64,000 bases of DNA from an uncultured Nitrospiraceae bacterium (GTDB lineage: Bacteria; Nitrospirota; Thermodesulfovibrionia; Thermodesulfovibrionales; Dissulfurispiraceae). The stretch covers positions 62,001 through 126,000 of the forward strand of contig CAIJNL010000002.1 in assembly GCA_903822005.1 (NCBI GenBank), given 5' to 3'. The notes below the pieces were generated by a model. That model had not been told where the DNA came from. It did no database searches and saw only the letters and a list, made by a program, of their open reading frames with translations. Shown in pieces: positions 43,745-45,829 of the stretch (the stretch's first letter is position 1; every line of letters starts with the position of its first letter). The translations under genes were made by a program, and so were the position numbers.

Positions 43745-43909
43745 ATGAAATTTACAATTACTACAGATGAAGACGGCATGTATATAGCAGAATGCCCGTC
43801 AATACCAGGTTGTGTCAGTCAGGGCACGACAGCGGAGGAAGCAGAAAGAAATATTCAGGATGCCATAAAAGAATGCCTTGCGGTTCGTGCGGAAAATGCC
43901 AAAAGATAA
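43745..43909 (+). CDS. HicB-like antitoxin-family protein, orphan (54 aa)
   Basis: AGGAGG lies ten bases upstream of ATG 43745. The product starts MKFTITTDEDGMYIAECPSI, then PGCVSQGTTAEEAERNIQDA, the standard UPF0150/HicB fold with its partial RNase-H-like strands. No HicA toxin gene lies next to it and the DNA-binding C-terminus is absent. It overlaps the YbaK-type gene by 14 bases. It may act as a solitary regulator or be left over from a toxin pair. Confidence 0.75.
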   Translation: MKFTITTDEDGMYIAECPSIPGCVSQGTTAEEAERNIQDAIKECLAVRAENAKR

Positions 43910-44381
43910 ACTACCTGTAACGCAGGCAGTACGCGCCCTGAGAGCAGCGGGCATTCGATTTACCGACCATCCTTACGCATATGAAGAGCGCGGCGGCACC
44001 GAGGTATGCGCCCGCGAACTGAATGTCGATGAACACAGCGTAATCAAGACACTCATTATGGAAGATGACAAAAAGAGCCCCTTGATAGTCCTGATGCATG
44101 GTGACATGCAAGTCTCTACCAAAGAACTCGCGAGATTGATCGGGACAAAGACCGTCACCCCCTGCTCTCCTGAAACAGCAAACAGGCACACTGGCTATGT
44201 TGTTGGCGGCACCTCTCCATTCGGCACTCGCAGGCAGATGCCGGTTTATATGGAAGAAACAATCCCTGACCTGGCGCGGATTTATATCAATGGAGGCAAA
44301 AAGGGCTACCTCGTTGGCATGGACCCAAAAGACGTTATCAAAATCCTGCAGCCAAGGCTGATCAGGGTCGCTATCCCCTGA
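43896..44381 (+). CDS. ybaK: YbaK/EbsC-type Cys-tRNA(Pro) deacylase (161 aa)
   Basis: ATG 43896 was chosen since the family begins a few residues before TQAVRALRAAGI. Typical motifs follow: FTDHPYAYEERGGTEVCARE, SVIKTLIMED, KELARLIGTKTVTPC and GGTSPFGTRRQMPVYMEE, then YINGGKKGYLVGMDP. The active-site Lys and GxSPFG loop are intact. The enzyme hydrolyses misacylated Cys-tRNA(Pro). Length 161 is normal. Confidence 0.92.
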   Translation: MPKDKLPVTQAVRALRAAGIRFTDHPYAYEERGGTEVCARELNVDEHSVIKTLIMEDDKKSPLIVLMHGDMQVSTKELARLIGTKTVTPCSPETANRHTGYVVGGTSPFGTRRQMPVYMEETIPDLARIYINGGKKGYLVGMDPKDVIKILQPRLIRVAIP

Positions 44382-44417: not shown

Positions 44418-44430
44418 TATAATTAATCTA
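44418..44430 (+). promoter_or_regulatory. Perfect −10 box directly before the transporter ATG
   Basis: TATAAT at 44418-44423 lies six bases before ATG 44430, so transcription would start at or next to the ATG, giving a leaderless mRNA. No Shine-Dalgarno is present. The −35 region is weak. Confidence 0.5.
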
Positions 44431-45392
44431 TGTCTTTATCCATACTTCTGGGGCTTGCTGTCGGCATGGCCTTCGGATACGTCGCGCAGCGCGGACGCTT
44501 CTGAATGCTCTCGGCCTCTTACGAGGTCGTGAGCGGCCGTGAGCCGTATATGCTTAGGACCTACCTCCTGGCCGTGCTGGTGCAGATGCTTGCGGTCAAT
44601 GTGCTTGCAGAATTCGGATACCTGCATGTGACCGTACCCGAAAATTTCGGGTTTGCGACCATTGCCGCAGGATTCCTATTCGGCATAGGTATGGTCCTTT
44701 CCGTGGGATGCGCGGGCGCCGTATTCTTCCGCGCCGGAGAGGGCAAACTAGATTATCTATGGGTCGTATGCGCATTCGCTGTCGGGGTCTGGCTGAGCAA
44801 TGACTGGATAGTTGAACCGGTACATAAATTATTTCATATCACGTGGCTTTCCACCTCGGTATACAGGGCCCTTGATATCGACCGTCTTCTCTTCATTCCG
44901 GTATTTATGCTTGCGGTTATTATCTGGGTATTACGGGTCGGGAACCATCCCTACAAAGGGGGATGGAAATGGCAATATACCGGTTTATTTATTGGCCTGA
45001 TCGGTACCGCCGCCTGGACGGTAAGAGCAGCTGATGGAAAGCCCTACGGCCTCGGCATGATGCAGGGCAGCGACGGATTGATGTCCCTGCTTTTAGAGGG
45101 AGACCTGAGCGGACTGGACGGCAGTCTTTTCATGGTACTTGGAGTTCCGCTCGGTTCGTTCATTGCCTCGCGCCTTTACGGCATGTCACCCGGCAGGCCA
45201 CTTACATCTAACAGGATTTGGCGGGCCCTTGCGGGTGGACTGTTGATGGGCGTCTCAGCCGCCATAGCAATGGGCGACAATGTCCTTCACGGACTAAGCG
45301 GCGTTCCGATTTTCGCGCTGAGCAGCTTCAGTTTCATGGTCTCCGCCTTTTTTGGGGTATGGGCAGGGGTAAAGCTGAACTGGTTCAAATAG
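44430..45392 (+). CDS. YeeE/YedE-family transporter with in-frame UGA as selenocysteine (320 aa)
   Basis: From ATG 44430 the frame gives AVGMAFGYVAQRGRF, then TGA at 44502-44504 (codon 25), then MLSASYEVVSGREPYMLRTY and nine or so further membrane helices to 45392. The family has a conserved Cys at exactly this point of its first helix (QRGxFC), so U25 replaces it. A SECIS-like hairpin follows at the correct distance. Starting at ATG 44505 instead would discard the conserved N-terminal helix and has no ribosome site. Cys94 in LSVGCAGA matches a second conserved Cys; the third (usually GC in the last helix region) is Asp here (AIAMGDNVLHGLSG). Family members move thiosulfate or selenium-related anions. 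Confidence 0.88.
44502..44543 (+). promoter_or_regulatory. Bacterial SECIS element
   Basis: After UGA 44502 the RNA folds: CUC 44508-44510 with GAG 44541-44543; CGGCC 44512-44516 with GGCCG 44535-44539; one U/C mismatch; CUUACG 44518-44523 with CGUGAG 44528-44533; apical loop AGGU 44524-44527. A GGU in the loop about 20 nt from the UGA and an unpaired U in the stem are the known features read by SelB in E. coli fdhF. Confidence 0.85.
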
Positions 45393-45457: not shown

Positions 45458-45829
45458 ATGCAGAAGAAAATGCTTGAACTGATAGTGTCAACAGACGAAG
45501 GACAGATATATGTTGAAGGACCTGAGTACAATAATGACGCTGGTGAACCGCTGAGGCCTTTTATTTCTGTCGCACCGGACCAGTTGGACACTCTCAACCA
45601 GTGGATGCTTGATGCGAAAGCAGAACTTATTAAAGGGCACGACATGCAGAAGAAGATGGTTGAATTTATTGTGTCAACTGGTGAAGGGCAGATATATGTT
45701 GAAGGGCCGGAATTCACCACTGACGCCGGCGAACCGGTAAGGGACTATATTAGCGTCTGGCCTGATCAGGTTGATTTTCTTATTCAGTGGCTGCTTGAGG
45801 CAAAGACAGAACTTCTCGCTTCAAAATAG
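45458..45829 (+). CDS. Tandem-duplicated small protein of unknown function (123 aa)
   Basis: GGAGGGG is upstream of ATG 45458. The protein consists of two copies of one about 60-residue unit: residues 1-60 and 63-123 both read MQKKMxEHIVST-x-EGQIYVE (MQKKMLELIVSTDEGQIYVE and MQKKMVEFIVSTGEGQIYVE), then GPEY/F, DAGEP, and a D-Q-x-x-x-x-x-QWxLxAKxEL end. This is a recent gene-unit duplication and in-frame fusion. It is short, soluble and acidic. No family is recognised. Confidence 0.7.
   Translation: MQKKMLELIVSTDEGQIYVEGPEYNNDAGEPLRPFISVAPDQLDTLNQWMLDAKAELIKGHDMQKKMVEFIVSTGEGQIYVEGPEFTTDAGEPVRDYISVWPDQVDFLIQWLLEAKTELLASK

Follow-up and report, generated by a model that had tools for sequence, protein, structure and literature searches.

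The window analysed here, a stretch of 64,000 nucleotides from an uncultured Nitrospiraceae bacterium, carries a gene for a YeeE/YedE-family membrane protein whose frame contains an internal UGA codon, very probably decoded as selenocysteine (Sec) (Table 1). From the ATG at 44430, 24 codons lead to the TGA at 44502-44504, which is followed by 295 in-frame codons and a TAG at 45390-45392. The initial annotation, made without database searches, had proposed exactly this frame, and profile searches bear it out. Specifically, the computed read-through product is a single PF04143 (Sulf_transp) domain lying across the TGA (residues 21-312, E 3e-50 in a Pfam profile search), with a score of 171.9 bits against a gathering cut-off of 27 and coverage of profile positions 1-310 of 310.

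Table 1. Features of the YeeE/YedE-family locus in the window
Feature	Position	Strand	Evidence or remark
YbaK/EbsC-type Cys-tRNA(Pro) deacylase, upstream neighbour	43878..44381	+	TIGR00011 over cut-off; stop 48 bases before the YeeE/YedE gene; context only
TATAAT, perfect -10 hexamer, last base six before ATG 44430	44418..44423	+	sequence
YeeE/YedE-family (PF04143) membrane protein gene	44430..45392	+	320 codons, predicted Sec at residue 25
UGA, predicted Sec (U25), aligned with Cys22 of S. thermophila YeeE	44502..44504	+	UGA in 4/4 orthologues; Cys in paralogues
SECIS-like hairpin, apical loop AGGU at 44524-44527	44507..44544	+	folding; synonymous conservation compared with the rest of the gene
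Codon for C94, second relay cysteine (Cys91 equivalent)	44709..44711	+	invariant in four orthologues
Codon for D283, at the first relay cysteine site (Cys293)	45276..45278	+	Asp in 4/4 orthologues

Among subfamily models, the top score was that of TsuA (NF052577, 131 bits), whose alignment also spans the TGA (residues 5-313 of the read-through protein), followed by YedE/FdhT (89 bits) and seleno-YedE (37 bits). These scores lie under the curated cut-offs of the TsuA models (400 bits for NF052577; 645 for NF041049, which scored 103) as well as of the YedE selenium models (seleno-YedE 200 and YedE/FdhT 350; TIGR04112 / NF033796). An AlphaFold model of the 320-residue protein (pLDDT 85, pTM 0.86) superposes on the thiosulfate transporter YeeE of Spirochaeta thermophila (6leo) with a TM-score of 0.90 and Z of 41-44 over 302-313 aligned residues, and the protein thus has the YeeE fold.

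The downstream neighbour (45458-45829) encodes 123 residues that form two similar tandem repeats of about 60 residues each (MQKKMLELIVSTDEGQIYVEGPE... / MQKKMVEFIVSTGEGQIYVEGPE...), and its product had zero Pfam or NCBIfam matches. An Rfam search of the window returned nothing at gathering scores.

Orthologues and conservation around the UGA codon

A scan of 84,980 species genomes yielded three orthologous loci besides that of the window. These belong to Nitrospiraceae bacterium AS27yjCOA_151 (L073; 55% identical), which is in the same family as the window's organism and whose gene also came up in a search among relatives, to a Candidatus Methylomirabilota MAG (L072; 57% identical), and to a Chloroflexi MAG (L074; 52% identical). 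The initial annotation had suggested aligning homologues to see whether UGA and Cys alternate at this codon, and the alignment came out in its favour: all four orthologues, from three phyla, have UGA at the position of codon 25 and none has Cys or any other residue there, while paralogues have Cys. The codon directly after the UGA is ATG in three of the four; in the Nitrospiraceae orthologue it is ATA.

The subfamily is sparse: in a sample of 396 genomes from the window's phylum it occurs in two, among 176 genomes of its order likewise in two, and in a sample of 400 from the phylum of the Chloroflexi copy in one. A weaker third match in the phylum sample (L076) is a Cys-type relative. The four orthologues form one clade (support 100/100) on a long branch, which makes spread by horizontal transfer likely. 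Their gene neighbourhoods differ, and no selenium-metabolism gene adjoins the transporter gene in any of the four loci. At the Methylomirabilota locus, 2 kb from the orthologue, we also observed a short frame resembling half of another YeeE/YedE protein (L072 3568-3924, minus strand; ...GCTSGH...).

Codons upstream of the UGA evolve as in coding sequence, with pN/pS of 0.28-0.71 in all six orthologue pairs. Moreover, in the 15 codons that follow the UGA, synonymous sites are constrained among the window, L073, and L072 genes (pS 0.18-0.35 vs 0.74-0.80 in the remainder). Between the window gene and L073, the codon is kept at nine of ten shared residues in this segment vs 49 of 151 elsewhere (Fisher p 0.0005). 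The Chloroflexi copy has no synonymous constraint after the UGA (pS 0.73-0.83 in its comparisons).

A SECIS-like hairpin downstream of the UGA

In the window gene, the UGA is directly followed by a hairpin with G in its apical loop, as in bacterial SECIS elements. The initial annotation had described a near-ideal SECIS with an AGGU loop about 20 nt from the UGA, and folding confirms it: stems of 4 bp (GCUC/GAGC), 5 bp (CGGCC/GGCCG), and 6 bp (CUUACG/CGUGAG) are separated by a U/U and a U/C mismatch, respectively, and the spacing from UGA to loop is 19 nt. The hairpin folds at -26.1 kcal/mol (z -5.2 against dinucleotide shuffles) and ranks first in stability among 306 equal-sized windows in the gene. 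When the same 14 amino acids were recoded synonymously with the gene's codon usage, none of 3000 recodings was as stable (z -4.5). In related genomes, genes with predicted Sec at the outer relay site (described below) mostly have AGGU, CGGU, or UGGU loops on covarying stems, so a GGU loop is likely what the SelB of the window's group accepts.

The expectation that relatives would share the hairpin fared less well, as conservation of the AGGU fold is not clear for the remaining three orthologues. In these, two smaller hairpins are equal to or better than the AGGU fold, and stability is modest, with 5%, 3%, and 41% of recodings as stable as the native sequence. All four genes can adopt the pair of smaller hairpins instead, and only in the window gene is the AGGU hairpin the best fold. 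One SECIS fold common to the four orthologues is therefore not established, and we take codon conservation, rather than fold conservation, as the evidence.

Start region

Upstream of ATG 44430 there is neither a Shine-Dalgarno sequence nor a clear -35 box, and a consensus promoter scan listed zero sigma-70 sites ahead of the gene, the TATAAT at 44418 included. The Nitrospiraceae orthologue has a TATAAT at the identical distance from its ATG and likewise lacks a Shine-Dalgarno sequence. A -10 hexamer six bases before the ATG, combined with the missing Shine-Dalgarno sequence, suggests that the mRNAs of these two genes are leaderless, a possible case of leaderless mRNA for a selenoprotein in both Nitrospirota orthologues. 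The initial annotation had dismissed the ATG at 44505, directly after the UGA, for want of a ribosome site; there is indeed no Shine-Dalgarno sequence there, but this does not distinguish it from ATG 44430, which is equally without one.

Selenocysteine machinery and decoding of the UGA

The sel genes by which the initial annotation proposed to check its reading were found in part. The window's genome encodes SelB (364 bits), SelA (604 bits), a Sec-type SelD whose own Sec codon is a UGA (KAAGUAAK), and two formate dehydrogenases (FdhA) with the ARIUHS Sec motif; SelB is over the cut-off in all four orthologue genomes. The computed Sec trait is thus present, minus an intact tRNA-Sec gene. What the assembly holds is the 3' half of tRNA-Sec with its TTCAAA anticodon loop, at 32507-32570 of contig C48 (L048 7507-7570), spanning CTTCAAAT to CCA and nearly identical to the same half in relatives with the whole gene. 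Searches with the Rfam model, with ARAGORN on selected loci, with a pattern of 22 bases, and across about 65 kb of C48 found no intact tRNA-Sec in the assembly; the two matches over the Rfam cut-off proved to be tRNA-Ser. The 5' half was also absent from the terminal 700-800 bases of every contig, a search in which the smallest contigs were 3.0 kb and shorter ones would be missing.

To the right of the half gene lie TPR and PilZ genes, as after the intact selC of a genome of the same genus (G001; 58% and 66% identity), while to its left the sequence is different. From this arrangement, the half gene, at the edge of an apparent genomic island, is apparently the trace of an element inserted into selC, with a regenerated gene at the element's other end. 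No integrase was identified there. Loss of selC in the window's organism is unlikely, because several intact Sec genes would be stranded.

Two other readings of the UGA have to be weighed against selenocysteine. Were it an ordinary stop, the gene would be a pseudogene, or translation would begin at ATG 44505 and give 295 residues without the first helix. Such a reading could draw on the ATG that directly follows the UGA in three of the four orthologues, on the missing Shine-Dalgarno sequence at either ATG of the window, and on the incomplete tRNA-Sec gene, yet we judge it very unlikely, since the same UGA recurs in four lineages of three phyla and the Nitrospiraceae orthologue has ATA where a restart would need ATG. 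Moreover, codons 1-24 are conserved at the protein level, the family's QRG motif sits in the helix before the UGA, the start codon 5' of the UGA in the Methylomirabilota gene forms an ATGA overlap with the upstream gene's stop codon, and the other Sec genes of the window's genome are intact.

Recoding of the UGA as Trp or Cys, through an altered genetic code or a suppressor tRNA, is conceivable in that an open frame through UGA does not alone identify the residue, but we regard it as extremely improbable. Paralogues have Cys at the site and the genome encodes a Sec machinery; in SelD and FdhA, too, UGA occupies the classic Sec positions, the codon in the window gene is followed by a hairpin, and UGA serves as an ordinary gene stop at the loci of relatives. 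The selenocysteine reading of the initial annotation is strongly supported by the UGA in all four orthologues and by the Sec machinery of the genome.

Relay residues and a possible transport mechanism

The published model for S. thermophila YeeE has thiosulfate pass along three cysteines, Cys293, Cys91, and Cys22, and then to a cysteine of YeeD, which docks beside Cys22 (PMC11073785). Profile alignment with 6leo/6lep equates U25, C94, and D283 of the window protein with Cys22, Cys91, and Cys293, respectively. Where TsuA has three relay cysteines, the window protein thus has, from the outer site inward, Asp283, Cys94, and Sec25. Of four YeeD-docking residues of YeeE, two are kept (Arg98 as R101, Glu101 as E104) and two are lost (Y31 in place of Arg28, M252 in place of Glu261). 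A motif scan found no gene for a TusA/YeeD-like CPxP partner in the window or in the flanks of L067, L072, and L074.

Most probably, SelB, guided by the hairpin right after the codon, inserts Sec at UGA 44502 and so allows synthesis of the full-length YeeE/YedE-family transporter. In the protein, U25 would lie where a helix breaks, at the cytoplasmic end of the transport path, the site of the third relay cysteine. By analogy with YeeE, a thiosulfate-like sulfur anion would pass from the central Cys94 to the U25 selenol and on to the cytoplasm, and the selenol would provide a softer, always ionised ligand. While the fold and the residue equivalences are computed, we infer the substrate, the direction of transport, and the benefit of selenium. 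Taken as a whole, an account that combines Sec insertion with YeeE-type sulfur transport is quite probable in our estimation, and the favoured reading, in which a thiosulfate-like anion is imported past a selenol at the inner exit, has slightly better than even chances as regards its substrate.

Alternatively, Sec may be inserted as proposed but the cargo, instead of thiosulfate, may contain selenium or be a different sulfur species (selenide, selenosulfate, sulfide, or polysulfide), with or without a TusA-like partner. We consider this a serious possibility, if somewhat short of an even chance: the protein scores under the curated cut-offs of both TsuA and both YedE selenium models, genome context ties YedE to the use of selenium (PMC5322559), the relay is Asp-Cys-Sec rather than Cys-Cys-Cys, and two YeeD-docking residues are lost, with no YeeD neighbour found. 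Against it, the best subfamily match is TsuA rather than either YedE model, and no adjoining selenium-metabolism gene occurs in the four loci. A bolder proposal, which we think unlikely, is that the four proteins may represent a Sec-only YeeE-like subfamily with an Asp-Cys-Sec relay, sparse across phyla and YeeD-independent, in which the exit selenol attacks and splits a sulfur or selenium anion. If true, transport and a first reduction step would be combined in one YeeE-like protein.

Comparison with known selenoproteins and transporters

To our knowledge, Sec is rare in membrane transport pathways. The initial annotation knew of no Sec-containing member of the family, which has to be amended: in a 2026 review, PF04143 already figures among the predicted selenoprotein families, its one Sec lying in the motif GUxSG (PMC13188914 Table 1; PMC9312934), at another position. 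By its motif, the GUxSG Sec reads as the middle relay site, equivalent to Cys91. The published GUxSG proteins share with the window protein the Pfam family and a predicted Sec, but differ in having Sec at the middle site, where the window protein has Cys, with its own Sec at the exit (QRGRFU) and Asp at the outer site. In the same review, proteins that differ in the position of Sec are treated as separate subfamilies (PMC13188914). Exit-site, outer-site, and double-Sec forms are absent from its list, and none was found in the literature searched, the coverage of which is incomplete.

S. thermophila YeeE/TsuA (PDB 6leo, 8k1r) has the same fold as the window protein and aligned relay positions, but the two are only 25-27% identical, with Cys22 replaced by Sec and Cys293 by Asp. 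The selenium-linked YedE transporters (TIGR04112, NF033796) are distant PF04143 homologues; their tie to selenium is one of gene neighbourhood, not of Sec content, and the window protein falls far under their cut-offs.

Closer parallels occur within the window's own order. Sixteen genomes (L046, L047, L071, L097-L109) encode a TsuA-like protein with two UGA codons (QRGRYU and GGUTVGH), at the equivalents of Cys22 and Cys293. In these genes, the codons around the first UGA (AGAGACGTGATCTTT) are nearly invariant, and the hairpin after the second covaries and has a GGU loop. The predicted proteins share with that of the window a Sec at the Cys22-equivalent site, but they are about 360 residues long, 29-31% identical to it (two compared), and have a second Sec at the Cys293 site; moreover, the two genes examined have Shine-Dalgarno starts, unlike the window gene. 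The double-Sec clade (support 100/99) is separate from that of the window, and predicted exit-site Sec is therefore present in two distant PF04143 clades. Eleven further loci of the same order, in two tree groups, have Sec only at the Cys293 equivalent (GGUNxGH; L022-L024, L034, L094-L096, L110-L113).

Predicted Sec is now placed at each of the three YeeE relay cysteines: at the exit in the window protein, at the outer site, alone or in the double form, in related genomes, and at the middle site in the literature prediction. Such placement would be natural evidence for chalcogen chemistry of these residues, as opposed to mere packing, and Sec/Cys swaps at the relay sites offer a direct test of the relay model. 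Ordinary gene callers cut genes of this kind at the UGA, and they are easily missed. The window gene is not the first YeeE/YedE gene with a predicted Sec, and the exit-site position of its Sec is new with respect to the published list.
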